Of a DNA stretch of 64,000 bases, positions 7,369 through 54,510 are shown in pieces (positions within the stretch are counted from its first letter, which is position 1; every line of letters begins with the position of its first letter). Made by a program: the position numbers and the translations under genes. Under the pieces are notes generated by a model that had not been told where the DNA came from, searched no databases, and was given only the letters and a program-made list of their open reading frames with translations. The stretch is from Gammaproteobacteria bacterium. GTDB taxonomy: Bacteria > Pseudomonadota > Gammaproteobacteria > DRLM01. The stretch spans positions 1 through 64,000 of the forward strand of contig JAHFRV010000007.1 in NCBI GenBank assembly GCA_023266095.1, read 5' to 3'.

Positions 7369-9573
7369 ATGAGTATCGCAAAACCCAAAAAGCCGAAAAA
7401 CAAACACGCTCAGCAACCAAGCACTGTGAAGGTGGATCAGCTGGTGAAAGACACCACGGATGCCACCGGCGCCTATCTCACCACTAATCAAGGCTTACGT
7501 ATCAACGATAATCAGAATTCGCTGAAAGCCGGCGAGCGCGGTCCGACCCTGCTGGAAGATTTCATCTTCCGCGAAAAAATCACGCACTTCGATCACGAGC
7601 GCATTCCCGAGCGTATCGTGCATGCGCGCGGCGCCGCGGCGCATGGTTATTTCCAGGTCTATCACTCGATGGCGCAATACACCAAGGCCAAATTTCTACA
7701 GGACCCCACGCAAAAGACGCCCGTGTTCGTGCGCTTTTCCACCGTCGCTGGATCGCGCGGTTCCACCGATCTTGCCCGTGACGTGCGCGGTTTCGCTGTC
7801 AAATTCTACACCGAAGAGGGCAACTATGATGTAGTCGGCAACAATATCCCGGTATTTTTCATCCAGGACGCAATGAAATTTCCCGATCTCGTACACGCTG
7901 TTAAACCAGAGCCTCACAATGAAATTCCGCAGGCGGCGTCGGCCCACGACACCTTCTGGGATTTTATTTCTTTGATGCCGGAAGCCATGCACATGATCAT
8001 GTGGGTGATGTCGGATCGTGCGATCCCTCGTAGCTACCGTATGATGGAAGGCTTCGGCGTACACACCTTCCGCTTCATCAATGACAAAGGTCAGGCGCGC
8101 TTCGTTAAATTTCACTGGAAGCCGCTGCTCGGGACGCACTCGGTGTTATGGGATGAAGCGATCAAGATATCCGGCAACGATCCCGACTTTCACCGTCGCG
8201 ATTTGTGGGAGGCAATCGAAAACGGCGATTATCCCGAATTCGAATTCGGCGTGCAGATCATTGAGGAAAAGGACGAGCACAAATTCGGCTTCGACCTGCT
8301 TGATCCCACCAAGCTCATCCCTGAGGAGATGGTGCCGGTGCAGCGCATCGGCAAGCTGATTCTCAATCGTAATCCCGACAATTTTTTCGCCGAGACCGAG
8401 CAGGTGGCCTTCCATCCCGGCCACATCGTGCCCGGCATCGATTTCACCAATGACCCACTGCTGCAGGGTCGGCTATTTTCCTATCTCGATACGCAGTTGA
8501 AACGGCTGGGCAGCCCAAATTTTCATGAGATACCAATCAACCGTCCGATCGCTCCCGTGCACAACAATCAACGCGATGCGCATATGCGGCAAACCATCAA
8601 CAAAGGCCGCGTCGCTTACGAGCCGAATACCTTGGCCGGCGGCTGTCCGTTTCAGGCAACGAGGGGCGAGGGCGGTTTTGCGAGCCACGCCGAGCGCATC
8701 GACGCCACCAAGGTGCGCGCGCGTAGCGAAAGTTTCTTTGACCACTTCAGCCAGGCGACACTGTTTTTCAACAGCCAGTCCGCCGCGGAGCAGGACCACA
8801 TCGTCAATGCACTGCGTTTTGAATTGGGCAAAGTGGAAACGCCGGCGATCCGCGAACGCATGGTTTATATGCTGGCGCAAGTCGATAAAAGTTTGGCAAA
8901 CCGAGTAGCGGAGGGTTTGGGTATCAGCGTGCCTGCCGGTATCGAGAGAGATCTCAATCAAAGTATACCGGCAGACGGCGACCCCAAAAAATTTCAGCCC
9001 AAGCGGGTTGGCAAAAACCTCGGTGCGTCACCGGCGCTCAGCATGGCCAACACGACCATGAACAGCATCAAGACTCGCAAGGTGGCGGTGCTGGTGGCGG
9101 ACGGTTTCGACGCCGCGCCGCTGGCCACCGTCAAACAGGCGTTAATGAACGCCGGCGCCCAAGTCAAATTGATTGCGCCGCGGCTCGGCCAGTTGCAAGG
9201 CAATAACGGCGAACAAGTGAAAATCGATTTCAGTTTTCTCACCTGCTCATCGGTGTTGTTCGATGCGGTGTATGTGCCGGGCGGCGAAGCCAGCATCGAA
9301 ACGCTGCAGGGCGTACCCAAAGCGCTGCATTTTATAAATGAGGCGTTCAAACATTGCAAAGCGATTGCGGTCACCGGCGCGGCGGTGGATTTATTGCAGG
9401 CGACTTATCTCGCCGACAAAGTTAACCATGCGAGTGGCAAAGGCGTGATAGTGGATGAGGGTGTCGTCATCAGTCGCGATGCGGCGCCGGCCAAAGTCAT
9501 CGCGGAATTCATCAAGGCCATTGCCCAGCATCGCCATTGGAGTCGTGAGCGGGACGACCACGTGCCGGCTTGA
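7369..9573 (+). CDS. katE: Large-subunit catalase HPII (KatE type)
   Basis: A monofunctional haem catalase of about 734 residues. The N-terminal catalase core shows the catalytic His segment ([18 protein letters not shown]), [29 protein letters not shown], and the haem-ligand Tyr in [16 protein letters not shown]-terminal flavodoxin/DJ-1-like domain ([21 protein letters not shown] to the end) is typical of the large-subunit HPII clade. The start ATG follows AAAGGA with 8-base spacing. An in-frame ATG 48 bases earlier has no ribosome site. It detoxifies hydrogen peroxide in the cytoplasm and complements sodB and the two peroxiredoxins. Confidence 0.95.
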
Positions 9574-9595
9574 CGTGATGCAATGAATTACGTAA

Positions 9596-9623
9596 GCCGC
9601 CGGTTAAATCGCTGACCGGCGGC
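9596..9623. terminator. Hairpin between convergent katE and batD
   Basis: GCCGCCGGT (9596-9604) and ACCGGCGGC (9615-9623) form a perfect 9-bp stem that overlaps the batD stop codon. There is no strong T-run on either side, so it may be a bidirectional pause or a Rho-aided terminator. Confidence 0.45.
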
Positions 9624-11262
9624 TGAAAGATTCGGGGCGCCACGGATCATTCGCTGTCACGGTCGCCGGGCGTCCGCGGCGGATGATTTCTATGGCGTCT
9701 TCCACTGCTTGCTGCAATTGCGGAGTGGTCGCCATCTGCTGGCGATCTTTGCCGTAACAAAGCCGCTGCACGGCGTGTACCGTCGTGCGCAACATCGGGT
9801 CGCCGCCGTTGCGTTGTTCCCAATCCTGTAAACCTAAGTCGAGGCTAGGGTTGCCGAAGGCAGCCAGCAGGCGTGCTTGCAAAGGGTGCGGCGCGTGAGT
9901 GGGTTGGCTCACCGCGTGACGCTGCGTCGATTCGACCGGCCAGATTTGTCTGGCGGGCGCGCGGCTTTGCCACCACAACGCGGCGGTGGCCAGCCATAAC
10001 AGCGCGAAAAAGGCCGTGCCGATTTGCCACCAACGTGCATCTTCCGCAGGACCGGCTGCGATGAGCGCATCCGCGCCATTCTGTCCAGGGCTGGTGGCGG
10101 TCATCACCGGCGTCACGGCCCGCGCCTCGCCGCTGATTTCGAGGCGCGGCCCCGCCAGTTCTGCGACGTCCATTACGCCGCGTTCGGTATCGAAGTACGG
10201 TACACGCACCGGCGGCAGCTCGAGATTGCCGGGACGTTGCGGCAGTGCGGAGAAACTGTAACGCACGGTGGTGGTCACGCCGTCGGCGCCGACTTCGCTC
10301 TCGCGCTGGGCCTGGTCCGCGTAAAGTTTGATGGAATCGGCCAGCGCCGGCAGCGGCAGGTTTTCGGGCAAGGCGAAACGGCTGAAGGCGCCGCTCACCG
10401 TCACCGTCCAGGTGCTGAATTGATCGACGGAGGGCGCCGGGATGGGTGGAGTCTGCGCGAGTTGCGGCACGCCGACGATCAAGTCCGCGTCCACCGTGAC
10501 AGGCAGGGCTTGCACCTGCACATTTTCCGTTTGATGAGGCAAACGCAGTTTGCGGTCGGCGGCGGTGACGACCCACACGTCGGGCAAGACTATTTTCAAC
10601 GCGCCGCTCTCTATTGGGAAGATCGCCCAGGCAGTGCGCACGACTTGATACGGTGTGCCGTTGACGGTCTCTTGACGCTGGCTTTGCGGCAGTTCGCGGT
10701 GTTCCAGCAGTTCGATACGGGTCGGCTCGGTGTCGATGTATTCGCCGACACTGGCGCTTTTGAGCGGGACGCGGTGATAGACGTCGAGCCAGGCCACCAG
10801 ATGTTCGCGTTGCCATACCCGCCTTTTACTGACACCGCCGCGACTGAAGACGTCGGGCAAGGCATCGGGCGCCAGTCCGCTCACCTGCACTTTGAGCGGC
10901 GTGCTGCTCAAACCGTCGATGCGAAAGGCGGGCAGGGTGAACGTGCCGCCGCGGCGCGCAAACAATTCCACACTGAGTTCCGACGTCGAGCGGCCGCGGC
11001 CGAGATCGACGTTGTAGCGGTGGCTGGCCTGCGGCTTGCCCACCTCGAAGTCCTTGGCGAGCACGCTCAAGTCGATGTTGGGCGCCACGCCTTCGGCGCG
11101 CAAACGGGTTTCGCTGTTGAGCAGCGTCAGGGTCAGCGTCAGCGGTTCGCCCAAGGCGACCGCGTTGCGGTCGATGCGTGCGGTGAATTCGGCGGCCAAG
11201 GACGCCGCGCTGAACAAGAAACTCAATAAAGCGCACAACCATCGGCATCGGCGCTGCGTCAT
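9604..11262 (-). CDS. batD: BatD-like oxygen tolerance protein
   Basis: A membrane-anchored protein of about 552 residues. A signal peptide (CRWLCALLSFLFSAASLAAEF) is followed by beta-rich domains (TARIDRNAVALGEPLTLTLTLLN, a BatD hallmark). One transmembrane helix lies late (IGTAFFALLWLATAALWW, about residue 418), then a cytoplasmic tail. It is last in the DUF58-DUF4381-BatA-BatB/C-BatD operon. Its ATG overlaps the preceding stop as TAATG, so I chose it over a GTG six bases earlier. Bat proteins are linked to envelope stress and MoxR chaperone function; the molecular activity is not established. Confidence 0.82.
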   Translation of the reverse strand: MTQRRCRWLCALLSFLFSAASLAAEFTARIDRNAVALGEPLTLTLTLLNSETRLRAEGVAPNIDLSVLAKDFEVGKPQASHRYNVDLGRGRSTSELSVELFARRGGTFTLPAFRIDGLSSTPLKVQVSGLAPDALPDVFSRGGVSKRRVWQREHLVAWLDVYHRVPLKSASVGEYIDTEPTRIELLEHRELPQSQRQETVNGTPYQVVRTAWAIFPIESGALKIVLPDVWVVTAADRKLRLPHQTENVQVQALPVTVDADLIVGVPQLAQTPPIPAPSVDQFSTWTVTVSGAFSRFALPENLPLPALADSIKLYADQAQRESEVGADGVTTTVRYSFSALPQRPGNLELPPVRVPYFDTERGVMDVAELAGPRLEISGEARAVTPVMTATSPGQNGADALIAAGPAEDARWWQIGTAFFALLWLATAALWWQSRAPARQIWPVESTQRHAVSQPTHAPHPLQARLLAAFGNPSLDLGLQDWEQRNGGDPMLRTTVHAVQRLCYGKDRQQMATTPQLQQAVEDAIEIIRRGRPATVTANDPWRPESFSRRSAI

Positions 11263-40852: not shown

Positions 40853-41803
40853 ATGGCCTTTTTTTCGTTAGTGAGGATGGCAATCTTAGCAAGTGTAGGC
40901 TTCCTTGTAAGTTTACCTTTCTCCATTTCACATGCGGCCATCGCCGTGTTATATCCCGATATCCGAGATCCGTATCGCGAGGTTGTTACCGCGATCATGG
41001 ACGGCATCAAACAGGGCACCACCCGCGAGATTAATTTTCATGCGATTGGCGACAAGTACGATCGTGATGCTTTACGCGAGACCTTGCTCCGCCAAAATAC
41101 CGAAGTAGTAATCGCGCTGGGCCGAGGCGGGTTCGCCGCCGCGCAAGAGATAAAATTGAACCGTCCGGTCGTAGTGGGCGCTTTGATAGTCGCGCCGGCC
41201 GATGTCGCCAGCGGTATCTCGGGCATCAGCCTGGCCGCCGATCCCGACTTGTTATTCGCCAAACTTAAGGCGATCTTGCCCGATATCAAGAATGTGAGCG
41301 TGGTGTATAACCGCGCCAACAGTGAATGGCTGGTGAGTTTGGGCCAGAGTGCCGCTAAACGTCATGGCGTACGATTGCTTGCCTATCCCGTTGAAGACAG
41401 CAGAGGCGCCGCGAAGGTCTACCGGGATATTTTGGCCAATAGCCGGCAATCAACCGACGCCATTTGGTTGCTGCCGGATGCCACGGTCGTGGAGGATCGG
41501 GTCATCCTGCCCCTGATTTTAAAAGGCGCTTGGGATAATTATCTGGCCGTGTTTTCATCGAATCCCGCCCATGTCAGAAGGGGCGCGCTGTTCTCATTGT
41601 TCCCCGATAATAAGGCGATGGGAGTGAGTATCGTGAAACTGGCGCAACGGGTTTTGAGTGAGGGCGGCAATGGCGCGGCCTCATCCATCGTGCCTTTGAC
41701 GGATTTACAGGCCGCGCTGAACACGCGTACCGCCGATCATTTGGGCCTGGCCATTTCCATTGAACAGCAGCGCGAATTCGCGCTTGTTTTTCCGGCGCCA
41801 TAG
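40853..41803 (+). CDS. Periplasmic binding protein (ABC_sub_bind type)
   Basis: A 316-residue exported protein of the ABC_sub_bind (type 1 periplasmic binding) family. A signal peptide (MAILASVGFLVSLPFSISHA; ATG 40877 is a possible start) precedes the binding fold (IAVLYPDIRDPYREVV, EVVIALGRGGFAAAQEI, NVSVVYNRANSEWLV, ATVVEDRVILPLILKG). No permease or ATPase is adjacent. It lies 8 bases before a histidine kinase gene. In many proteobacteria such orphan binding proteins, kinases and TonB receptors are encoded together, suggesting sensing rather than transport. The ligand is unknown. Confidence 0.85.
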   Translation: MAFFSLVRMAILASVGFLVSLPFSISHAAIAVLYPDIRDPYREVVTAIMDGIKQGTTREINFHAIGDKYDRDALRETLLRQNTEVVIALGRGGFAAAQEIKLNRPVVVGALIVAPADVASGISGISLAADPDLLFAKLKAILPDIKNVSVVYNRANSEWLVSLGQSAAKRHGVRLLAYPVEDSRGAAKVYRDILANSRQSTDAIWLLPDATVVEDRVILPLILKGAWDNYLAVFSSNPAHVRRGALFSLFPDNKAMGVSIVKLAQRVLSEGGNGAASSIVPLTDLQAALNTRTADHLGLAISIEQQREFALVFPAP

Positions 41804-41811
41804 AGTAGTAG

Positions 41812-43446
41812 ATGAGCATGGATATCCTTGATCGTCTATTGCCGCCGTCATGGAGTTTCCGCAAACAACTTTTATACACCGTGTCGGTGGGCGTCGCCTG
41901 CATGGCTTTGCTGGCTTCGCTGGCGACCGCGGTTTTGCAAAGCATGAATATGCGCGAATCGCTGGTGCGGGAGGGCGTGCAAATCACCGATAATTTCGCG
42001 ACGCAAAGCGTGTTGGCGCTGTTGCTTTCCTCGCAGGAGAATGCCGCCGATTCCGCCAAAGCGACGCTGGCCTTTCCCAATGTCCGCTACGTCTCTATTT
42101 ATAATATGGAGCGTAGCCTTTTACTGAAACAGGGAGAAAAGGTGGATTGGGCGCCCGCGCTGGAGGTAATGACGGCGACCGCCCCCCCTAATAAAGCATC
42201 CTTGATGGAGGAAACCGGCTCATTTCTGCATTTTATCGCGCCGGTGTATTCCCGGCCGGAGGGCGGCGAAGGGATAGAGTCGCAGTTTCACCTGCAAGAT
42301 CCGCAGGTCGAACAATTGGGGTTCGTGCATGTCGCGATCAGCAAGGCCGAGTTGCGGAAGGCTCAAGCGACTATTTTCATAAACAACATCATTGTCGCGT
42401 TGATCTTCGCCGCGGTGTTGCTTTTGCTGTTGCGCAGCATCGTCAACCGCGCCACCTCGCCCCTGCAGGCCCTTGCGGTGGTGATGCGCAAGACCGGCGA
42501 AGGCGAAGGTCATTCCCGTGCGTTGATTGAAGGCCCCGCCGAAGTTAGAACCATCGCGCGCGTATTCAATAAAATGATCGCCGCGCTCGAAGAGCGGGAT
42601 CGGCAGCTGCGCGAGCAAAACGATAATCTGGAGGCCCTGGTGTCTTCGCGGACCCGCGAGTTGGTGGCGGCGCGCGATGAGGCGCTGCTGGCCAGCCGAC
42701 ACAAATCGGAATTTCTCGCCAACATGAGCCATGAACTGCGCACACCGCTAAACGCCATCATCGGTTACTCAGAGATGGTAATCGAAGAAATGGAAATTGA
42801 AGGTAATGACGAAGTGGTAACCGATCTGCGACGGGTCCATAACGCCGCCAATCACCTGCTGGTGATGATCAATACTATTTTGGATCTCGCGAAAATCGAG
42901 GCGGGTCGCATGGATGTCTGGCTTGAAGCGACCGACATACGCGAGCTGGTCGCGGAGGCGGTGGACACGGTGCGCGTGCTCGTCAAGAAAAATAACAATC
43001 AGCTTTCCGTGCGGACTGAAGGCGGATTGGATATGGTCGTGATGGACGGGCAAAAGCTTCGGCAGATATTGCTGAATTTATTGAGCAATGCCAGCAAATT
43101 TACCAAGTGCGGTCACATTGAAATATCGGTGACTATCACCGAAGCGTTGCTGGTGATCGTCGTATCCGACACCGGGATCGGCATGTCGGAAGACCAGCAG
43201 GCCCATATTTTCGAAGAATTCCGCCAGGCGGATATGAGTACCACCCGCGAGTATGGCGGGACCGGTCTGGGTCTGAGCATTACCCAAAGACTATGTCAGT
43301 TGTTGGGCGCGACTATCACGGTAAAAAGCGTACACCAGCAGGGTTCAGTTTTTTCGGTGGGCATACCACTCCCGGTAAAAGGCACTTTGCTGGCGGGGGG
43401 CTTGCCGCCGCGCGCGGTGGATGGAAACCAAACGGGCCAAACCTGA
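41812..43446 (+). CDS. Membrane sensor histidine kinase with HAMP
   Basis: A 544-residue sensor kinase. It has a first membrane helix near residue 20, a periplasmic region of about 145 residues, a second helix (IFINNIIVALIFAAVLLLLL, about 187-206), HAMP and a coiled coil. The HisKA domain has H307 in SHELRTPLNAIIGYSEM, and the ATPase has N, G1 and G2 boxes (NLLSNASKF, DTGIGM, GGTGLGLSI). No response regulator gene is next to it. The periplasmic domain probably receives signal from the binding protein encoded 8 bases upstream. It is convergent with the TonB receptor gene. Confidence 0.92.
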   Translation: MSMDILDRLLPPSWSFRKQLLYTVSVGVACMALLASLATAVLQSMNMRESLVREGVQITDNFATQSVLALLLSSQENAADSAKATLAFPNVRYVSIYNMERSLLLKQGEKVDWAPALEVMTATAPPNKASLMEETGSFLHFIAPVYSRPEGGEGIESQFHLQDPQVEQLGFVHVAISKAELRKAQATIFINNIIVALIFAAVLLLLLRSIVNRATSPLQALAVVMRKTGEGEGHSRALIEGPAEVRTIARVFNKMIAALEERDRQLREQNDNLEALVSSRTRELVAARDEALLASRHKSEFLANMSHELRTPLNAIIGYSEMVIEEMEIEGNDEVVTDLRRVHNAANHLLVMINTILDLAKIEAGRMDVWLEATDIRELVAEAVDTVRVLVKKNNNQLSVRTEGGLDMVVMDGQKLRQILLNLLSNASKFTKCGHIEISVTITEALLVIVVSDTGIGMSEDQQAHIFEEFRQADMSTTREYGGTGLGLSITQRLCQLLGATITVKSVHQQGSVFSVGIPLPVKGTLLAGGLPPRAVDGNQTGQT

Positions 43447-43481: not shown

Positions 43482-45560
43482 TTAGAAGGAGTATTCCGCC
43501 TCGACATAGAAGCTTCGCCCCGCTATGGGTAGATCATTCGGAATTTGACCAGGGCTAATACTGGGTTCGTATCCCGCTTCATCCAATAGGTTGCGGATCG
43601 AGGCGGCGAACGAGAATTTATCAATACCCTGATTGCGGCGTACGGTTAAATCAAGGGTGAGGTAATCGTCAACCGGGGGCCGTGCGTCGCCCGTGACCCG
43701 CTGCCGCTCACCCACCCAGGTAATCTGCGGACTGATATTCCAGCTATTGGCTGGTTGCCAGTTGGTGCGGGCATAAATTTTATGATGCGGCGCGTTGCCG
43801 GGGTCCGAGCCGGTGTTGTCGTCTTCCGAACGTTGCAGGGCGTAATTGCCGATGAGACGTACCGTATCGGTGATGCTCCAGCTTATTTCCCATTCCAAAC
43901 CGTAACCAGTTTGACTGCCGCTATTCTGCGCGGTTACGGTGGTGGCGGGAGAGGGATCATTGATGGGACGGATTATATCCTTCATCTGGTAGTGAAAAAG
44001 ATTTAATCCGGTACGTGCTTGAGCGGATATTTGATAATCGAAAGCGAGTTCTATGGTGTCGATGGTTTCCGGTTTGAGATTGGAATTACCCAGCGCGACG
44101 GGATTGTTAATATTGTAAAGTTCGGCAAACGACGGCGCGCGGAATGCACGGCCGTATAACAGTTTAGTAGTGAGATCGAAGGCGGTTTGCCAAACGATGG
44201 CCGCGCGAGGATTGATGGTATCGCCGAAGTCTGAATAGTTGTCATATCTTACTCCGGCGGTGAGGCTCCAATCCCGCGCGAACATCCATTCATCTTGAAC
44301 GAATAGATAGGTTATTTTGCGGTCTTCCTCTCGCACAAAGGCGGCTGAATCGCTAACGTCAACGACGCTACCCAGCGGGACGGGGATGCCGCCCGGCGCG
44401 AAAAAATAATTTCTGCTTTCTGTAACTTTGTATAGATCACTGAAATTGTAACCGGCGCCCAAACGGATCCGGTGTTTCTCCCAGCCCGTATAAAAGCTGG
44501 ATATCCCAAAGCGGGTATGCCGCTCATAGACGTCCGGATTGCCGATCAGCCCATCCGGAAACGCCCCGCCGAAAGCGCCGGGTGGAAACAACACCAGCTC
44601 GGAACGGGCGCTCGTGTCGAAATAACTCAGTTCGACGCTGGTGTCCCAAGCCTCCACGCGCGTCAAGCGGTAGGTGAGGTCCGCGTTAAACCGATCGCTT
44701 TGATTGTCGCCGACGGGATCGAGCGCTTGCGCCACGCCGGCCCCGGTTCCCACATCGCGCCGACCTTGATAACCCAGGCGCAGCCGCCAATCGCCGATGC
44801 CTAAGTCAACGCGGGTATCCAAATATTTTCGTCCCAAGTTCACGGGGCCGGGGGCCAGCGAGGCGCTCGTTGCGAATAAGCCATCCAGACCGGTTTGAGC
44901 GTCGGCTTGAACAGTTTCCCGCTGGCCGTCGGTCATCCCATATTCAAAAGAGAAGGTGGTGCTTAAACCGTTATGTTCGCCGCCGTATTGTAGCCAAACC
45001 TCTTTTGTATCAAACGAACCGACCCGCGCACCGATTTCGGTGCCATCGATGTTATTCGCATCTTTGGTGATGATGTTGATGACACCAGAGAAGGCGTCCG
45101 CGCCATAAACCGCCGAGCCCGGGCCGCGGATGATTTCAATGCGGGCGATATTATTGACCGGCATCCCTCCCCAAACTTGACTGCGGTCGCCGGCGAAGAT
45201 GTTGGTGATGGGGATGCCATTGATAAGAATCAGGATCTGTGGATTCGTTTCTGAATATATTCCCCGTATCGTGTATACAGGATTATATAAACGATTTGAT
45301 CTTGCTACGTGTAGGCCCGGAAGAGTTTCCAGGATTTCGTCAAGATCTCTGGCGCCGATTTCCTTAATATTTTCCGCTGAAATGACCGAGGCTACGGCGG
45401 GGGCGTGGGCTATGGTTTGTTGTACGCCTGTCGCGATCGTGACGAACTCCGTATCGCCATACATGAGTGAAAAATCATCTTCTACTGCTACAGCGGCGGT
45501 CCCGAAAGCACTAAAAATGAAGCTGAGAATCACGGGAATTCTATAAGTGCTATTTTTCAT
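43482..45560 (-). CDS. TonB-dependent outer membrane receptor
   Basis: A 692-residue TonB-dependent receptor. A signal peptide (RIPVILSFIFSAFGTAAVAV) is followed by a TonB-box-like stretch, the plug domain (PAVASVISAENIKEIGARDL, LDEILETLPGLHVARSNR, IEIIRGPGSAVYGADAFSGV), and a 22-strand barrel. The last residue is Phe (EAEYSF), as needed for barrel assembly. Its ATG lies four bases after the stop of the second citrate-synthase-like gene, so it is the last gene of that operon. The substrate is unknown. Its operon with metabolic enzymes, rather than transport genes, is unusual. Confidence 0.93.
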   Translation of the reverse strand: MKNSTYRIPVILSFIFSAFGTAAVAVEDDFSLMYGDTEFVTIATGVQQTIAHAPAVASVISAENIKEIGARDLDEILETLPGLHVARSNRLYNPVYTIRGIYSETNPQILILINGIPITNIFAGDRSQVWGGMPVNNIARIEIIRGPGSAVYGADAFSGVINIITKDANNIDGTEIGARVGSFDTKEVWLQYGGEHNGLSTTFSFEYGMTDGQRETVQADAQTGLDGLFATSASLAPGPVNLGRKYLDTRVDLGIGDWRLRLGYQGRRDVGTGAGVAQALDPVGDNQSDRFNADLTYRLTRVEAWDTSVELSYFDTSARSELVLFPPGAFGGAFPDGLIGNPDVYERHTRFGISSFYTGWEKHRIRLGAGYNFSDLYKVTESRNYFFAPGGIPVPLGSVVDVSDSAAFVREEDRKITYLFVQDEWMFARDWSLTAGVRYDNYSDFGDTINPRAAIVWQTAFDLTTKLLYGRAFRAPSFAELYNINNPVALGNSNLKPETIDTIELAFDYQISAQARTGLNLFHYQMKDIIRPINDPSPATTVTAQNSGSQTGYGLEWEISWSITDTVRLIGNYALQRSEDDNTGSDPGNAPHHKIYARTNWQPANSWNISPQITWVGERQRVTGDARPPVDDYLTLDLTVRRNQGIDKFSFAASIRNLLDEAGYEPSISPGQIPNDLPIAGRSFYVEAEYSF

Positions 45561-45563
45561 AAA

Positions 45564-46400
45564 TTACATTTTTAACGCATTGTGTTGAGTGCTCGCGCTC
45601 GTCCATGCCCGTCTTTGCGGCCCGATATAGTTGATGCCGCTACATCTGATTGGCAAGAAAGTACCCTCAGGGTGGGACGCGCTTTCGACATAACAAGGAA
45701 GCATACCTGCTGTGAAACATTGGATCATATAAAGGTAATGTTCTCGTGCTTTGATGCCTTGGTCGGCGACTAACGCCGCGATCAAACTCGCCGCGTTCAT
45801 GTGAAGCCTCCAGCGCCCATCAAGCAAAGTCTTTTCTATGTCAAAGGCGAGCTTCACGTGTAGGCCGTTTGCATAGCCGAGTTGTTCTGCAAGTGACATC
45901 AGTGCGGGAATCCGTTCATCGGTGCCAATGAGTGGACGTCCATAACCGGGAACTACACGGTATGTTTCTAGCTCACGGGTGATCAAGGCTTTTAAATTAT
46001 GTCCCTTGTCGAGATTTTCTTGGGTGCGAATTAAGAATTCTATGCTTTTGATTACGGGTTTTTGACCATAGATAGTTGCCTCGGAGGCGGCAATCGCGGC
46101 TGCAATACCTAAAGAACCCGTGGTCCTAACGGTGCCGGCCAGGGCCGCGATCCGGTTATTCCATAACCGGGCCTCGGGATAACTCGTGCATATAACCCAG
46201 ATGCCTTCAAGGAGCTTGATTTGTTTCTCGTCAAAAGAGCGGCCGGTTATCCCATACATTAATAACTGCAGCCAGCGGGAATCTTTGAGGTCTTTAAAAA
46301 GATCGTTGTCTCGATATATGACGGGTTGTCCTGGTAATGCCGAACCGGCGGTCGTGTGCCAGTTGTTTTCATTGCTGAGGAGGGCGGATGGCGAACGCAA
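45564..46400 (-). CDS. Diverged citrate-synthase-fold protein, copy 2
   Basis: A 278-residue member of the citrate synthase/citryl-CoA lyase superfamily, shorter than citrate synthase (about 430). Recognisable parts are LLEGIWVICTSYPEARLWNN, RIAALAGTVRTTGSLGIAAA, VVPGYGRPLIGTDERIPAL and NAASLIAALVADQG. By eye, the family's HGGA(N) histidine is replaced in the ATIYGQKP stretch, the second His in VPGFGHP is Arg (VPGYGRP), and the NVD aspartate is Ala (NAAS). It starts with TTG, nine bases after GGAG, and follows copy 1 by 12 bases. Catalysis on its own is doubtful; a partner subunit role is inference. Confidence 0.7.
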   Translation of the reverse strand: MRSPSALLSNENNWHTTAGSALPGQPVIYRDNDLFKDLKDSRWLQLLMYGITGRSFDEKQIKLLEGIWVICTSYPEARLWNNRIAALAGTVRTTGSLGIAAAIAASEATIYGQKPVIKSIEFLIRTQENLDKGHNLKALITRELETYRVVPGYGRPLIGTDERIPALMSLAEQLGYANGLHVKLAFDIEKTLLDGRWRLHMNAASLIAALVADQGIKAREHYLYMIQCFTAGMLPCYVESASHPEGTFLPIRCSGINYIGPQRRAWTSASTQHNALKM

Positions 46401-46412
46401 TGTCGTATACTC

Positions 46413-47234
46413 CTACAAAATCGCAGCCGAACTTCGCGTGTCAGGGTTGTTGTTCATTTTTATAGCGCCAGCAAAAAACGGAAATCGTCGCCAGCCATAT
46501 TCCTTCTGTTCTAAAGCGTGAACGGCGGCGCCGGGCAGACGCAGCAGTAGAAAAAGCATCTCCCCTTGGTCCGCGCTGAGGGAGAGATCCATGAAGGTAG
46601 CGGCCGCCACCCCGCTCATCGCAAGGGGGGCATCGGCGATTTTTTCGAGCCTCTCTCGCTGTTCTTGCAGCCAGGCCAAATGCGGACCGGGGCTACACCC
46701 GCTGAGATAGGCCAAGGTTTGGCGGACCGGTGTGCTGCAACTGGCGCCGTGAGGATCGAATCCGGGGGGATGTTCCATGGGCAGCCAGATATCAATCCGC
46801 TCTTCCTGCGGTGGATTGCGCAGCAGGGTTTCCCAGGCGGCGGAATCGAGGCCGCCGCTGCGCCAGTATTCCATCGCCCGATACACTTCGTGTGCGCCGC
46901 CGAGTTGCCCCGCGCCGACCGCGAGGGCCGCCATCAAACATGCGGCGCTGGTGGAGCCGCCAACCCCGCCGTTCATTGCGGCATGAACGCTGTGATCCCG
47001 TATGCCGGGATTGGCGAGGGCGACGGCAATACCTTCCAATAACATGGTTTGCTGTCGTGAGGGAGGTTCACCGAGAAACAAGAGATGGAGGTATTCTATC
47101 CAACCGGCTTTGCCGAGCAGGTCGCCGTACACATTATAACCATGACAAAAACTGGCGGCAGCGGCGAAAGGATTATCGGCTTCGGGTATTTCATCCCAAA
47201 TGCGCGTATTGAATTTATCGCTTTTGTCTACCAT
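46413..47234 (-). CDS. Diverged citrate-synthase-fold protein, copy 1
   Basis: A 273-residue protein of the citrate synthase/citryl-CoA lyase fold. Family segments: FCHGYNVYGDLLGKAGWIEY, LHLLFLGEPPSRQQTMLLEG, IRDHSVHAAMNGGVGGSTSA, GAGQLGGAHEVYRAMEYW and MSGVAAATFMDLSLSADQG. The usual catalytic His just before GGA(N/H)E is Leu (QLGGAHE), and the NVDG aspartate appears as Ser (AMSG). It lacks the middle VPGFGHP motif that copy 2 keeps in altered form. The two copies may therefore pair. It begins 21 bases after the TPP enzyme gene. Confidence 0.72.
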   Translation of the reverse strand: MVDKSDKFNTRIWDEIPEADNPFAAAASFCHGYNVYGDLLGKAGWIEYLHLLFLGEPPSRQQTMLLEGIAVALANPGIRDHSVHAAMNGGVGGSTSAACLMAALAVGAGQLGGAHEVYRAMEYWRSGGLDSAAWETLLRNPPQEERIDIWLPMEHPPGFDPHGASCSTPVRQTLAYLSGCSPGPHLAWLQEQRERLEKIADAPLAMSGVAAATFMDLSLSADQGEMLFLLLRLPGAAVHALEQKEYGWRRFPFFAGAIKMNNNPDTRSSAAIL

Positions 47235-47255
47235 GAGCTTACTTTGCCGCTGAGG

Positions 47256-49211
47256 TTATGCGGTGGCATTGAGCATTTTGATACGTTGTTCCAAGGGCGG
47301 CCGTTCATTCGGATCGATGTGGACATCGAGTACGGTGGGGCCGGCGCGGTTGCAGAGCGCGGCGATGTCGAGAGCCGCCATGTCCTCGGGTGTATCGATA
47401 CGGTAAGCGTCGGCCCCCATGGATTTAGCGTAGGCGACAAAGTCGATGGGCGGCAATTCGAAGGCGATGGGTTCCGCGCCGGCCATTTGCTGGCCGTGTT
47501 TGACGGTGCCGAAGGCGGCGTCATTGAGGATGACGTAAATGATAGGCAGTTTTTCCTGCACCGCGGTGTTCAATTCCTGGCCGCTCATCAGCACGGCGCC
47601 ATCGCCGGCGATGCAGACTACCGGGTTGCCGGGAGAGGCGATCGCGGTGCCGACCGCGGCGCTGATGGCCCAGCCCATGGAAGCGAAGCCCATGCCCATC
47701 CGTATTACGCCGCTGGGGAGTGAGCGGTCGCCGATGATGCGCCTATCATAAGGATGCAGATAATGGATGACCCACAGGAAGCTGTTGCCGATGTCGGCCA
47801 GAAAACGGGTGGTGGGCGGGAAGAGTCGCGATAAATCATACATCAGCCGTTGCGGTTTGATGGGAGCGGCATTGGAGATGTATTTGTCTTCGTCTTTTAA
47901 GGTAAAGCGGCGCGCAGTGAGAGGAATGCCCAGATCGTCGCGCCGTTCATCGGCCAGCCGATTTTCCTTGGCGCGCAGCGGAGTGACGTTTTCCGAAAAA
48001 TAAGGGCGCGGCGAAGGTTGGCGGCGATCGTGGGCGCGGCGGTCAAATTGCACCACCGGAAAACTGTGCGGCCGGTTGTGTTCGGAAAATTGCCAGAGTA
48101 CATCCTGCTGCCCTTTATCATTGCTGTAGAGACGGCCGATCAATCTTTCGAACAAGCTGCGCAGATTGCCGCTGATATGTTGGCGCGCCAGGGGCGAACG
48201 GGAGAAATGCTGAGGCGTGGCATCGGTAAACACCACTTTTTTGCCCATCAAAGCAGTGCGGTCCCAGCTGTTGGTTGCTTGTTCGTCCAGGTCGGTGCCG
48301 ATGGCCAGCACCACGTTGACGCTGGGATCCTTGAGTAGACCGTGCGCGGTGGGATGGCCCGCCAATCCGTATACCCCGCGGTATTGAGGATGATAAGCGC
48401 TGACCAGGCCTTTGCCGTGGGGCGTGGTGACGACCTGGGCGTTGAGCAGTACAGCGAGTTCCAGAATGGTGCCGACCGCCTTGCCCGCGCCGGCACCTAA
48501 CACGAACACAGTGTTGCGGGAGGTGCGCAAGGTGTGTTGCAGTTGGTCCACCGCTTCGTCATCAACGGCGTAGGACGGATAGAGCAGGGATTTGAGATTA
48601 TGGCCGGGCTCGACGCTCACCGGTTCGCGTAGCACATCCAAAGGAATGCTTAAATGCACCGGGCCCGAAGGCGGTTGCAAGGCCATGGTGATGGCGGTGA
48701 TGAGCTTGCGCTCCAATTGATCGACGTGCGAGACCAGGGTGTTGTAGCGCGTGCAGTGTTCATACATGGCGACGGTGTTGATGCCGGTGCAGCTGGATTC
48801 TTGTACCGCGCCGCGGCCGAAGGTGCGCAGCGGCGTTTGCGCGGTGATCGCCAGCAGGGGGATTTGATCTTGGTAGGCGGAAGCGATGCCGGTGATCATG
48901 TTGGTGGCGCCGGGCCCGGTGGTGGCGCAGCACACGCCGAGTTTGCCGGTCTCGCGGGCGTAGCCGTCGGCCATGAAGGCCGCCCCGGTTTCGTGGCGGG
49001 CCACGACCGGGCGGGGTCCGCCGCGACGTTGGCTGCGAGCCAGCGCGTCATATAACGGCTCGATACTCCCGCCGGGGATGCCGAAGACGAACTTGATATC
49101 GAGCTGTTCCAGGTAATGGATTATGAGGTCCGCGGCCCGCAAAGGCTGTGCTCGAGAGGATTCATGGAATTCTGTGTTGTTATTCGCATCGCTCGGGGTG
49201 ACAGACGACAT
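47256..49211 (-). CDS. Acetolactate-synthase-like TPP enzyme
   Basis: A 651-residue thiamine diphosphate enzyme of the acetohydroxyacid synthase fold. The catalytic Glu is in ARHETGAAFMADGYAR and the TPP motif is GDGAVLMSGQELNTAVQ with ILNDAAFGTVKHGQQM. It is about 80-100 residues longer than IlvB-type catalytic subunits; an Arg-rich insertion (VQFDRRAHDRRQPSPRP on) lies between the middle and C-terminal domains. No regulatory subunit gene follows. ATG 49211 has a GGGAGG site. It is first in an operon with two citrate-synthase-fold genes and a TonB receptor. The substrate is probably a 2-oxoacid; the product is unknown. Confidence 0.85.
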   Translation of the reverse strand: MSSVTPSDANNNTEFHESSRAQPLRAADLIIHYLEQLDIKFVFGIPGGSIEPLYDALARSQRRGGPRPVVARHETGAAFMADGYARETGKLGVCCATTGPGATNMITGIASAYQDQIPLLAITAQTPLRTFGRGAVQESSCTGINTVAMYEHCTRYNTLVSHVDQLERKLITAITMALQPPSGPVHLSIPLDVLREPVSVEPGHNLKSLLYPSYAVDDEAVDQLQHTLRTSRNTVFVLGAGAGKAVGTILELAVLLNAQVVTTPHGKGLVSAYHPQYRGVYGLAGHPTAHGLLKDPSVNVVLAIGTDLDEQATNSWDRTALMGKKVVFTDATPQHFSRSPLARQHISGNLRSLFERLIGRLYSNDKGQQDVLWQFSEHNRPHSFPVVQFDRRAHDRRQPSPRPYFSENVTPLRAKENRLADERRDDLGIPLTARRFTLKDEDKYISNAAPIKPQRLMYDLSRLFPPTTRFLADIGNSFLWVIHYLHPYDRRIIGDRSLPSGVIRMGMGFASMGWAISAAVGTAIASPGNPVVCIAGDGAVLMSGQELNTAVQEKLPIIYVILNDAAFGTVKHGQQMAGAEPIAFELPPIDFVAYAKSMGADAYRIDTPEDMAALDIAALCNRAGPTVLDVHIDPNERPPLEQRIKMLNATA

Positions 49212-49238
49212 CAACGTTCCTCCCTGATACATATACAC

Positions 49239-49267
49239 ACAATAATAGACTGTCCGAGCGCTTGCAA
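49239..49267 (-). promoter_or_regulatory. Candidate sigma-70 promoter of the TPP-enzyme operon
   Basis: On the minus strand a TTGCAA -35 (49262-49267) and a TATTGT -10 (49239-49244) are 17 bases apart, just upstream of the GGGAGG site and ATG 49211. No clear operator was seen around it. Confidence 0.5.
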
Positions 49268-49351: not shown

Positions 49352-51931
49352 TTAGGCGGAATAAAATTCCAGAGGCAACGCATGACCTATGCCGTGACCT
49401 TGCACGTAGTCGACGCCGATTTCTCGTAGGCATTGCAGGACGGCCGGCGTTTCGACGCATTCCGCGATGGTTTTCTTGCCGAGGATGTGGGCGATGTCGT
49501 TCATAGAGCGCACCATGGCGAGATCGAGATCATTGTCGGCGATGTGCTTGATATAGGAGCCATCCAATTTCAGGTAATCGGTGGGGAGATGACGCAAATA
49601 ATGGAATGAGCAGAAGCCCGTGCCGAAGTCGTCCAGAGCGAAACGGCAACCCAAACTTTGCAGTTGGTCGATCATGCGCTGGGTTTCGTTGATGTTGGCC
49701 ACACTGGCGGTTTCGGTGATCTCGAAAATGATCCGTTTGGGGTCCACGCGCAGGTCATTCAACTCATTATTAACGAAACCGAGCAAGTCGGGATCAGCAA
49801 AGGCATGGCCGGAGAGATTGATCGCCAGTTGCGGCAACCAGGGCTGGGTGGCCAGCATTTGAATGGCGTGTTTGATGACCCAGCGGTCGAGCATATGGAT
49901 TTGACCGGCCTTTTCCACGGCGGGTATGAAAATCCCCGGCGTGATGATGTCGGCGGGTTCGCGGGTGCGCAGGCGCAAAAGAGCCTCGTAGTGGTTGATC
50001 TTGCCGGTGGCGAGTTCGAGGATGGGTTGGATATAGAGCTCCAAACGCTCTTCGCTGATGGCTTGCCGTACCCGATGGGCCCAGTCTATGCTCTGCCGTA
50101 ATTCGTCGCTGTCCTTGTCGGCGGGATCGTAGATATGCACCAGGTTGCGGCCGCGGTTTTTCGCCGCGAAGCTGGCTTTGTCCGCTTGCAGAAGGTGAGC
50201 GGCGCCGGATGACTGGCTGCCGTCGATCAGGCTGATGCCGATGCTGCATCCGACGGCGATTTCACGCCCCTCGTGGCGGTAACGGAATTGGTTGATGACT
50301 TCGACCAGCCCGTAAGAGGCGGCCGTGGCCTGCTGGGCATCGGCGTGAGTAAGCAGAATCGCGAATTCATCGCCGCCGATCCGGCACAGCAAGTCGGATT
50401 CCCGGGTGCGGGAGGACAACAAGGTGGCGACTTCCTTGAGCACCATGTCGCCCTCGCGATGGCCTATGGCGTCATTGACCATTTGGAAATGGTCGAGATC
50501 GATATAGAGCAGCGCATGAGGCACCGCGGAACGGGCGCTGCCGGCGGCCATGTGTTCCAGGCTGATTTCAAAATAGCGGCGGTTGTATAAACCGGTCAGC
50601 GAGTCGTGAATGGCCAAATGTTCCAATTGAGCCATGGCCAATTTGCGTTCGGTGATGTCGGTGAGGTGACCGAAAATCGCTTCGATACCCGAATCCGGGT
50701 GTTGCTTGACGTTAAGGGTGATTTCGGTCCATACCGTCTCGCCGCGTTTGCTGAGCAGGCGGACTTCCTGTTCGTGGTGCTGTTTCCGGCCCGCGGCCAA
50801 AGCGCAGATGATGGCCCGGCATTGGCCGCGGTCCAAGGGTGCGAGAAAGTCATAAAGAAAGCAGCCTATGCTCTCGTGGATCTTGAAATGGCTGAGCTGT
50901 TCCCAGGCACGGTTGAGGAAACGCAGGCGGCCATCGGCATCGAGCTCGAAGACTACCGAGCTGAGGTTGTCGAGCAAGCGTTGATGGGCATCGGCAATCA
51001 CGGCGTAATGACTTTGCGCCGTCTTGAGGGCGCGGGTGCGCTCGGAAAACTGACGATTACTGATCAGGCAGTCGGCGCGCCGTACCGCGATTTCACAGAT
51101 TTGGCGCAACTGGTTGGCGTGAAACGGCTTGGCCAGGAAATCGACCGCGCCTTCCAACATCAGCGACTCGCAGCGTTCGGCGCTGCCATCGGCGGTCATG
51201 ATGATGATGGCCTGCTGCGGGTCTTCCGCAAGTATGGTGCGCAACACCTCCGGCCCCGCCAGTTTGGGCAGCATGACGTCCAATAAAACCAGGTCATAAG
51301 GTTTTTTGCGCCACGACTCCAATCCCGCACATCCGTCGCTCACCGTGTCGATCTCGAAGCGGCCTCGTAACATGCGTTCCGCGAGTACCGCAGTGTCCGG
51401 ATCATCCTCGATGATCAGCAGACTCGGCTTTTTAAGCATGGGGTTGGAGTCGGCGAGGAGAGTTTGCACCGAATGCAGCAATTCGCCGCGGTTCTCCAGT
51501 GGGAGGGAGAAAAAGCGATTGACCTCGAATTCGCGGGCGGTGGTTTCCGCGATGCGCTCGCTGAACGTGGCTGAGGCCACGATGATGGGCGTGGTGGCGG
51601 GACAGCTAAATAGACCGGAACGCACCATGCGGGCCAGCCGCCAGCCGTCCAGCTGCGGCATGTGAATATCGGTGATCAGCAGATCGATCGGTTCACCGCG
51701 GAGTTTGCGTATCGCTTCGCCGCCATCGCGGGCTTCGATGATCTGAAATTGGCCGTCTTTGGCCAGAGTTTTAGAGAGGAGGTGGAGGATGTCGTCTTGA
51801 TCGTTGACGATGAGGATGCGGGCTTGCCGCCGCGACGCTGGCTCGCGCGGTTTGGGCTTGGGAAACTCAATAATGCCGTTATTGAGCCCATTCATTGCGG
51901 CCACCCTGCCACCCCGAAAGTGCGTTGCCAT
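49352..51931 (-). CDS. REC-REC-PAS-GGDEF-EAL protein
   Basis: An 859-residue response-regulator-type protein that may both make and degrade c-di-GMP. Domains: receiver 1 (about 38-155, LLITDIHMPQLDG), receiver 2 (about 168-285, LVLLDVMLPKLAG), PAS (about 310-425), GGDEF (IGGDEFAILL, intact) and EAL (YEALLRLR, FEITETA, DDFGTGFCSFHYL, KTIAECVET, all key acidic residues present). No membrane segment is present. The start may be ATG 51931 or ATG 51895. It is transcribed away from the wsp operon. It could receive phosphate from the orphan kinase at 41.8 kb or from WspE; both are guesses. Confidence 0.92.
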   Translation of the reverse strand: MATHFRGGRVAAMNGLNNGIIEFPKPKPREPASRRQARILIVNDQDDILHLLSKTLAKDGQFQIIEARDGGEAIRKLRGEPIDLLITDIHMPQLDGWRLARMVRSGLFSCPATTPIIVASATFSERIAETTAREFEVNRFFSLPLENRGELLHSVQTLLADSNPMLKKPSLLIIEDDPDTAVLAERMLRGRFEIDTVSDGCAGLESWRKKPYDLVLLDVMLPKLAGPEVLRTILAEDPQQAIIIMTADGSAERCESLMLEGAVDFLAKPFHANQLRQICEIAVRRADCLISNRQFSERTRALKTAQSHYAVIADAHQRLLDNLSSVVFELDADGRLRFLNRAWEQLSHFKIHESIGCFLYDFLAPLDRGQCRAIICALAAGRKQHHEQEVRLLSKRGETVWTEITLNVKQHPDSGIEAIFGHLTDITERKLAMAQLEHLAIHDSLTGLYNRRYFEISLEHMAAGSARSAVPHALLYIDLDHFQMVNDAIGHREGDMVLKEVATLLSSRTRESDLLCRIGGDEFAILLTHADAQQATAASYGLVEVINQFRYRHEGREIAVGCSIGISLIDGSQSSGAAHLLQADKASFAAKNRGRNLVHIYDPADKDSDELRQSIDWAHRVRQAISEERLELYIQPILELATGKINHYEALLRLRTREPADIITPGIFIPAVEKAGQIHMLDRWVIKHAIQMLATQPWLPQLAINLSGHAFADPDLLGFVNNELNDLRVDPKRIIFEITETASVANINETQRMIDQLQSLGCRFALDDFGTGFCSFHYLRHLPTDYLKLDGSYIKHIADNDLDLAMVRSMNDIAHILGKKTIAECVETPAVLQCLREIGVDYVQGHGIGHALPLEFYSA

Positions 51932-52461: not shown

Positions 52462-54510
52462 ATGCAAACCATCGTTAATCGGCTGCCCTTCGCCAACCGT
52501 TTATCCGTTCGCGCGAAGATCAATTTGACCGTGGCCATGATCTTCATATTGGTCGTGGGCTCGGTAACCATCTACTCCGGTATCCGCCAAAAAGATGCCA
52601 TTTTGATGTTGGCGGAGGCACAAATCAAAGATACCTCAACGCTGTATTTTGACAGTCTCAATACCATGATGCTGACCGGCACCATGGATCAGCGAAATAT
52701 ATTGCGTGAGAAGATGCTGCGCCGCACCAATGTGCTGGAGGCGCGGGTCGTGCGGGGTTTGCCGGTAAAAGGCCAATTCGGCGCCGGCTTTCCCGAAGAA
52801 CAGCCCATGGACGATCTAGATCAAAAAGCGCTGATGGGCGAAGACATTCTGGTGGTGGGAAAAAATGACAAGGGGCGCACGGTTACCGTAATGACGCCCT
52901 TTCGCGCCACCCCCGACACGCGCGGCGTCAATTGCCTGCAATGCCACCAAGTTCCCTCGGGAGCGGTCAATGGCGCCATCCGCCTGACTTATTCCTTGGC
53001 CGATATGGATGCCGGTGTCGAAAAAGAGCTGTGGGTAGGCGCACTCGCCAACGTGGTTTTGCTGATGGGCGGCTTATTGGTCGTCAATCTCCTGTTCCGC
53101 GGCTGGATATCCCGCCCGCTGCAAGATCTGATGGATACCTTGAATGCGCGTACCGGCGGCAATAACACCGTGAGGGCGGTGATCCATAACAATGATGAGC
53201 TGGGCAAGCTCGCGATCGCCTTCAATTCCCTGGCGGATAATGTCGATGCGTCGACCCAGCGCGAGCGGGAACACCAGGAACGTGAACGGCAAATCGCCGA
53301 GGAGCTGGCGAACAAGGTCAATATTCTTTTGAATGCGGTGGACAAGACCGCGTCGGGTGATCTAACCAGTAAGATCAGCTTCAGCGGCGAGGATGCGATC
53401 GGGAAGCTGGGTAAAGGCTTGCAAAAAATGATGGACAACTTGCGAGACCTGATCGAGGAACGGCGCCGGGCGATGGAAGATCTCCAACAAAAAGCCGACA
53501 CCATACTTGGTGTGGTGGTTCGCGCGGCGGAAGGTGATTTGACGGGACGTTTAGACATTCGCGGCGAAGACACCATCGGTAAACTGGCGAGTGGTGTGCA
53601 GAGGATGGTGGACAATCTGGGCGGACTGGTCAATCAAGTCCAACAGTCCGGCATACAAGTGACTTCATCGGCAACGGAAATCGCCGCTACCGCCAAACAG
53701 CAGGAAGCGACCGCCGCCGAACAGGCCGCCACGGTCAACGAAATCGTCGCGACGTCGACCGAGATTTCCGCTACATCGAAAGAGCTGGTCAAAACCATGG
53801 AAGAGGTGGCGCGCGTAGCAGAAACCACCGCGACCGCCGCCAGTCACGGTCAAGCTGGCCTGGACAAAATGGAATTGACTATGCATCAAGTGGTGGAAGC
53901 CTCCGCCTCGATCGCCTCAAAACTAGAGGTGCTCAACGAAAAAGCCAGCAACATCAATACCGTGGTCACCACCATTACCAAGGTCGCCGATCAGACCAAT
54001 TTGCTTTCGCTCAACGCGGCGATCGAGGCTGAAAAAGCCGGCGAATATGGACAAGGTTTCGCGGTGGTCGCCACCGAGATCCGCCGTTTGGCCGATCAGA
54101 CCGCGGTGGCCACATGGGATATCGAACAGATGGTGAAAGAGATGCAATCGGCCGTCACCGCCGGGGTGATGAGCGTGGAGAAATTCTCGGAGGAGGTGCG
54201 GCGCAGTGTCGCGGAAGTGGAATCGGTCGGAACCCAGCTCGTGCAAATCATCGAGCAAGTGCAGGCTCTCACTCCGCGCTTTGAAAGCGTGCATGAAGGC
54301 ATGCAATCCCAGTCACAAGGCGCTGATCAGATCAAACAGGCGATGATTCAGCTTAACGAAGCCGCGCAACAGACGGTGGATTCCATACGGCAATCCAATT
54401 CCGCCATCGAACGTCTTAACGACGCCGCGCATGGCCTGCAAACCGGGGTGTCGCGCTTCAAGGTGCAGAAACGCGCGCATGAATCCGGATCGTGGCTTGC
54501 GAGTGCTTAA
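52462..54510 (+). CDS. wspA: WspA-type chemoreceptor with periplasmic c-type haem motif
   Basis: A 682-residue methyl-accepting receptor. It has a membrane helix at about 21-43, a periplasmic domain, and a second helix at about 194-216. The haem motif C158-L-Q-C161-H162 ([14 protein letters not shown]) lies near the end of the periplasmic domain. HAMP and HAMP-like repeats follow ([19 protein letters not shown] and [19 protein letters not shown]), then the signalling hairpin ([40 protein letters not shown]). It is the first gene of wspABCDEFR. Pseudomonas WspA responds to surface contact and is not known to bind haem. Redox or gas sensing is inferred from the CxxCH. Confidence 0.9.

Follow-up and report, generated by a model that had tools for sequence, protein, structure and literature searches.

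A conserved gene set with a thiamine-dependent enzyme, a degenerate citrate-synthase-fold pair and a TonB-dependent receptor: a possible signalling unit in Gammaproteobacteria

What do a thiamine diphosphate (ThDP; also thiamine pyrophosphate, TPP)-dependent enzyme, two short proteins of citrate-synthase fold and a TonB-dependent receptor (TBDR) of the outer membrane do in one gene cluster? The question is raised by a 64,000-nucleotide stretch of a gammaproteobacterial contig (JAHFRV010000007.1, assembly GCA_023266095.1), called the window below, in which four minus-strand genes, named here TPP, CSA, CSB and TBDR, follow each other with gaps of 21, 12 and 3 bases, as an earlier note on this DNA had described. 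The answer that we favour, with a confidence slightly short of evenly balanced, is that TPP, CSA and CSB (the trio) are a biosynthetic unit for a small diffusible molecule, which is sensed and taken back by the linked receptor, a binding protein, and kinase, cyclic di-GMP (c-di-GMP) and chemotaxis proteins.

Conservation of the trio

Relatives of CSA were found at 19 loci in a scan of the genome collection, in hosts that comprise uncultured gammaproteobacteria, a Methylococcaceae metagenome-assembled genome (MAG), Moraxellaceae-type MAGs and many Marinobacter; one of these relatives, from a biocathode MAG, is 82% identical. The TPP gene and CSB adjoin CSA at all 19 loci, and the receptor gene is present at 18; at the remaining one the contig breaks off within CSB. 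Adjacency of the four genes, whose rarity in related genomes the earlier note had named as evidence against its own reading, is widespread. When 369 gammaproteobacterial genomes were searched with profiles, strong CSA matches (above 150 bits) were obtained in 43 and members of the TPP family in 51 (above 530 bits; the next TPP enzymes scored about 280 bits or less in the genomes checked for unpaired CSA-CSB), with both present in 41. This TPP enzyme is found in 41 of the 43 genomes with CSA versus 10 of the 326 others (Fisher p = 2e-42, uncorrected for relatedness), and where the CSA-CSB pair had no adjacent TPP gene, a TPP orthologue lay elsewhere in the genome in five of the six cases checked.

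Two families outside Gammaproteobacteria likewise have the trio. The order in the first is TBDR-CSA-CSB-TPP-ABC_sub_bind-kinase; in the second, which has no receptor, TPP-CSA-CSB precede the genes of a 1727-aa Ser/Thr kinase-AAA-GAF-histidine kinase and of a LuxR-type response regulator. A single genome carries TPP and CSA fused by a short linker into one 886-aa open frame (L073, 7276-9936). Plasmid carriage was looked for in PLSDB and gave no match. Taken together, we consider it highly probable that TPP, CSA and CSB are one functional unit.

The TPP enzyme and the altered pair

The resemblance of the TPP gene product to acetolactate synthase (IlvB/AlsS), reported in the earlier note, holds in part: the three-domain ThDP fold, the catalytic Glu and the GDG...N motif are shared, but the enzyme scores far below the cut-offs of the NCBIfam acetolactate synthase models (290.9 vs 509 for PRK08322, 290.7 vs 538 for TIGR00118), has a different linker and lacks both the acceptor-site Trp and a regulatory subunit, no ilvH-like gene being adjacent or among the operon genes, as had been observed before. 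The host genome encodes a separate IlvB-like enzyme (L098) that has this Trp and is 30% identical to the TPP enzyme. Plain acetolactate synthase was ruled out as its identity by score, by the Trp to Gly change and by context. The long Arg-rich insertion emphasised in the earlier note is real (residues 369-452, 13 Arg) but lineage-specific, near relatives having a different sequence there and Marinobacter and the Moraxellaceae MAGs having none.

All 48 aligned relatives retain the catalytic Glu, Gln, the GDG Asp and the Asn of the metal site, and in the same 48 the acceptor-pocket Trp of acetolactate synthase is replaced by Gly. The best PDB matches are BbmA (8x3x, 2.3e-89) and CsmA (8x3z). These ThDP enzymes (PDB 8x3x, 8x3y, 8x3z, 8xod), which we take to form alpha-hydroxy-beta-keto acids, are the closest solved relatives and share the Gly; the PDB entry for BbmA-G484F changes exactly this residue. 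We know of no citrate-synthase-fold partners of BbmA or CsmA. Because Trp is replaced by Gly, it is a natural inference from the sequence that the acceptor pocket would be open and suited to a bulkier partner.

In Pfam, CSB scores below the cut-off (22.3 vs 27) and CSA has no match at all; the nearest NCBIfam family, citryl-CoA lyase, is also below its cut-off for both (47 vs 245 bits for CSA and 42 vs 245 bits for CSB). Profile alignments to citryl-CoA lyase made with hhalign are unambiguous (probability 99.5-100 for CSA and 98 for CSB), the AlphaFold2 models of the single chains have a mean pLDDT of 90.5 (CSA) and 89.0 (CSB), and the top Foldseek match of both models is citryl-CoA lyase 6hxp. 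Both proteins are thus predicted to have the citryl-CoA lyase fold, and their length agrees with that of citryl-CoA lyase and citrate synthase. They differ from these enzymes in that the catalytic His/His/Asp are missing in both and the residue set is split over two diverged paralogues.

The earlier note had reported, by eye, that the HGGA His and the NVD Asp were lost, and profile alignment bears this out, with the third catalytic residue, the GFGH His, also gone. Neither the GFGH His nor the NVD Asp is kept in any of the 54 CSA and 52 CSB relatives aligned with a true lyase (L069) as control. Where the lyase has its GFGH His, nearly all CSA have Pro or Ser and all 52 CSB have Arg; where it has the NVD Asp, CSA sequences carry Thr, Ser, Pro or similar residues and CSB sequences Ala, Asn, Gly or similar residues. 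Most sequences have also lost the HGGA His: the CSA group to which the window's protein belongs has Leu, Tyr or Asn there, and in a divergent CSA subgroup a His is mostly found at or near this position. A true citryl-CoA lyase was ruled out as the identity of CSA or CSB by the missing catalytic residues. ATP-citrate lyase mutants D1026A and D541A appear among the structure matches by their PDB titles, which fits the removal of this Asp as a means of trapping substrates for crystallography. The control, L069 (genome G343; 9430-10299), is an ordinary citryl-CoA lyase in which the catalytic residues are complete; it is followed by a protein that by eye is TctC-like, that is, tricarboxylate-binding.

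Each protein of the pair retains separate residues of the lyase set, as had been claimed. All 52 CSB sequences have the DPR Arg, the NVD Asn and the C-terminal Arg; in CSA the His of AHxxE is kept in 54 of 55 sequences and its Glu in 55 of 55, usually with the preceding Arg (38/55). An alignment of CSB relatives further revealed invariant residues of their own, W80, N82, R155, D161, E162, R163, N202, C236 and R264. This set looks like a rebuilt binding site, and since the new residues are invariant, CSB would be functional rather than decayed. That CSA and CSB act as a pair is supported by their being found together, by the complementary retention of residues and by the correlation of their distance matrices (r = 0.91, permutation maximum 0.22); this correlation and those for CSB-TBDR (0.83) and CSA-TPP (0.44) are all above 500 permutations. 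The co-evolution of CSA and CSB also lends indirect support to a putative physical association of the two. In the complete genome G136 (L072 / L171) CSB seems to be split, a 72-aa start lying beside CSA and the remainder about 0.5 Mb away, which suggests that a rearrangement broke the gene.

Some clusters contain further enzymes, namely an O-methyltransferase (L011, L060), a short-chain dehydrogenase/reductase (L056, L057) or a glutamine-dependent Asn-synthase-type amidotransferase with an N-terminal Cys (L059, L064), as expected of a pathway that decorates a product. At L179 (4691-5683; genome G038, 86% complete and 6% contaminated), the only such case, a ketoacyl synthase III (KAS III) with intact Cys-His-Asn lies between TBDR and TPP, in the usual place of the pair. 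Since KAS III takes this place in G038, a C-C bond-forming or acyl-handling role of CSA-CSB is plausible. A methyltransferase occupies the same place beside the TPP gene at L173. At L174 and L182, TPP-family genes without the pair are located near FIST-domain proteins (NosP-type sensor domain) and kinase or GGDEF genes.

The receptor and its sensory surroundings

The receptor had been assigned to the same unit as the trio, and the conservation described above agrees with this. In the window it consists of plug and barrel only; no STN signalling domain was found with Pfam, so it does not qualify as a FecA-type transducer. Since some hosts degrade hydrocarbons, the TOL_0244/OmpS alkane receptor was tried as its identity and rejected by score: against the family model NF053590 the receptor reaches 154 bits at a cut-off of 645, its tested relatives reach at most 187 bits, and the two true TOL_0244-type members of the host genome lie elsewhere. 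Among general models it matches those of heme/siderophore receptors best, below their cut-offs. TOL_0244-type receptors were themselves seen at L142-L151, including one of the two in the host genome (L151), usually followed by DUF4154 and a kinase/GGDEF/MCP gene (MCP, methyl-accepting chemotaxis protein); this combination is a recurring receptor-sensor module.

The surroundings of the trio were counted, with no background rate computed, in 25 relative loci with full flanks. A TBDR was present in 23 of them, an ABC_sub_bind or DUF4154 (YfiR-like) protein in 21, GGDEF in 17 and a histidine kinase in 15. The full order of the window (Table 1), MCP / GGDEF-TPP-CSA-CSB-TBDR / kinase-ABC_sub_bind, is found again in L007 and in L092, the latter from another family; a kinase homologue lies beside the receptor in these two and in many others. 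The gene for the response regulator (RR)-GGDEF-EAL protein has the same place in L007 and L092 and is also found upstream of TPP in Marinobacter, together with DUF4154, a CHASE8 kinase and a response regulator, the receptor gene there being convergent. The L010 cluster has SpoIIE, STAS, MCP and CheB genes. The trio is constant while the sensory apparatus changes type, unrelated kinases taking its place in some clusters.

The earlier note had missed these conserved neighbours (ABC_sub_bind, histidine kinase, GGDEF-EAL and the heme-motif MCP). Because the conserved surroundings are sensory, they point to the sensing of a compound more than to plain uptake. The ABC_sub_bind protein is probably the sensor partner of the adjoining kinase. 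The heme-c-type motif of the MCP is CLQCH (residues 158-162), and CXXCH is retained in the homologues of L007, L080, L085, L088 and L092, which suggests a heme-based redox or gas sensor.

Table 1 Features of the locus in the window.
Feature	Position	Strand	Basis
TPP, ThDP (TPP)-dependent enzyme, acetolactate-synthase superfamily, distinct subfamily	47256..49211	-	Pfam TPP_enzyme_N/M/C
CSA, predicted citryl-CoA-lyase-fold protein without citrate synthase/lyase catalytic residues	46413..47234	-	hhalign, AlphaFold2, Foldseek, residue counts
CSB, second predicted citryl-CoA-lyase-fold protein without catalytic residues, TTG start	45564..46400	-	hhalign, AlphaFold2, Foldseek, alignment
TBDR, TonB-dependent outer-membrane receptor (plug and barrel)	43482..45560	-	Pfam Plug and TonB_dep_Rec
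Histidine kinase (membrane part, HAMP, HisKA, HATPase), convergent with receptor gene	41812..43446	+	Domain search
Periplasmic ABC_sub_bind protein	40853..41803	+	Pfam PF04392
Protein with two RR domains, PAS, GGDEF and EAL (c-di-GMP turnover), directly upstream of TPP	49352..51931	-	
MCP with N-terminal CXXCH (heme c type) motif, divergent	52462..54510	+	
Ribosome-binding site AGGGAGGA ahead of ATG 49211	49218..49225	-	Read from sequence

The open frame of TPP extends to GTG 49238 (47256-49238), whereas a start at ATG 49211 gives a protein of 651 aa, not 660. The ATG is the more likely start, because AGGGAGGA lies just upstream and the position matches the start of the nearest homologue, that of L007. 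The single candidate promoter described in the earlier note is not supported: a consensus scan upstream of TPP found no sigma-70-like site, and the region has fewer sites than its shuffles. Since the RR-RR-PAS-GGDEF-EAL gene ends 140 bases upstream of TPP on the same strand, in a position kept in relatives, the transcript may begin further upstream.

Possible function and competing readings

From these results we infer a mechanism in which the TPP enzyme would decarboxylate a 2-oxo acid and join the acyl unit to a bulky acceptor, giving a product of the acyloin or alpha-hydroxy-beta-keto-acid type. CSA and CSB would form a heterodimer with a rebuilt active site, in which arginines, Asn and Cys replace His/His/Asp; this site would bind a thioester or carboxylate substrate and perform or shape the next acyl or C-C step. 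The product would then re-cross the outer membrane through the TonB receptor and be sensed by the periplasmic protein and the kinase, c-di-GMP and chemotaxis proteins. We are evenly divided on whether the linked receptor and sensors respond to the product of the trio, and hold more tentatively that this product is a small acyloin or hydroxy-keto acid. The earlier note had proposed a heteromeric lyase/synthase or scaffold linked with the receptor; the behaviour of the two proteins as a pair, their tie to the TPP enzyme and the place of the receptor in the unit stand, the heteromer is a proposal, and no specific 2-oxoacid-derived carboxylate is supported.

In the lqs system of Legionella, cqs of Vibrio and pqs of Pseudomonas, the genes of a small-molecule synthase accompany those of sensors and regulators, and PqsBC is a precedent for a heterodimeric, partly degenerate condensing enzyme. 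The organisation of the present locus is similar, in that genes of putative biosynthetic role lie beside sensor kinase and regulator genes, as in autoinducer synthase-sensor systems; no enzyme of those systems is homologous to the trio, and a TonB receptor is found in this system only. As no protein is homologous, the likeness would be one of working alike, not of membership. The most complete version of our reading appears doubtful as a whole: a widespread, hitherto undescribed signalling system of Gammaproteobacteria in which a ThDP carboligase and a heterodimeric, repurposed citrate-synthase-fold condensing enzyme make a diffusible signal of a new class, which has its own TonB receptor for re-entry and controls c-di-GMP and chemotaxis via the periplasmic protein and kinase.

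Several points weigh against a self-made signal. The gene set includes no recognised autoinducer synthase. The combination of TBDR, DUF4154 and histidine kinase/GGDEF also exists without the trio, beside TOL_0244-type receptors, and because this receptor family has been connected with the uptake of alkanes, what the sensing module reads may be a compound from outside. Ten genomes have a TPP orthologue but no CSA/CSB (in at least one of them the gene sits at the edge of a contig), so other partners are possible for the enzyme. Finally, the KAS III case comes from a single contaminated genome, and tailoring genes are present in few clusters.

The main rival, which we judge unlikely, is uptake and breakdown: the receptor would import a compound from the environment, to be sensed by the periplasmic protein and the kinases and cleaved by the trio, acting as a TPP lyase and a CoA-linked lyase-like pair. 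The TonB receptors TOL_0244/OmpS of alkane degraders are linked to alkane uptake (PMC6304351), and their genes lie in modules of the same design, beside DUF4154 and histidine kinase/GGDEF/MCP genes, though they belong to another receptor family, as the scores above indicate, and have no TPP-CSA-CSB. Several named hosts (Marinobacter) come from hydrocarbon settings, and the TPP superfamily does include lyases. Yet the residues of a lyase are missing from the pair, no dehydrogenase, CoA ligase, thiolase or inner-membrane transporter recurs among the neighbours, the extras that do recur being sensors and occasional tailoring enzymes, and outside the class the trio is found without a receptor beside kinase/LuxR genes.

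It is rather improbable that CSA and CSB are non-catalytic, forming a heterodimer that serves the TPP enzyme as regulator or scaffold in place of an IlvH-type subunit, with a carboxylate or CoA ester as the compound sensed. The loss of all classical catalytic residues, the TPP-CSA fusion, the tight co-occurrence and the ligand-binding arginines kept by CSB would all agree with such a role; two diverged paralogues that are widely conserved, with new invariant polar residues and a Cys, exceed the needs of a scaffold, and KAS III stands once at the place of the pair. Still less probable is a metallophore pathway, in which the trio would make an alpha-hydroxy-carboxylate chelator and the receptor would recover the metal complex. 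Alpha-hydroxy acids are metal ligands, a TonB receptor lies within the operon, and its best general matches are to heme/siderophore models; but the scores stay under the cut-offs of those models, the annotated neighbours include no NRPS-independent siderophore synthetase or nonribosomal peptide synthetase (NRPS) gene, exporter, iron reductase or inner-membrane metal transporter, and what accompanies the operon is a set of signalling proteins, with an ABC_sub_bind protein that lacks transporter genes. The lost catalytic residues might suggest decayed citrate-synthase pseudogenes in a run of genes brought together by chance; this is refuted by the conserved open frames and invariant residues, and by a gene order and co-occurrence that hold in many families, also outside the class.

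The earlier statement that no described pathway has this gene set agrees with the open-access literature, in which nothing on this system was found under the gene set, BbmA/CsmA (for which the assumed chemistry was likewise not confirmed), the Marinobacter/Tenderia biocathode or ThDP-made autoinducers. The citryl-CoA lyase of a Caulobacter iron paper (PMC3751524) has a CitE-type annotation and is unrelated.

About one in nine of the sampled gammaproteobacterial genomes, culturable Marinobacter among them, carries this gene set. Genetic tools are available for Marinobacter atlanticus CP1 (PMC6308636), a strain that may carry the operon. If the signalling reading is true, there would be a thiamine-dependent class of self-made signals perceived via a TonB receptor, and two citrate-synthase-fold proteins would have dropped their catalytic residues and been jointly rebuilt for another reaction. 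Whatever the product, the function of the trio can be tested directly, given its invariant residues and the tractability of the Marinobacter hosts.

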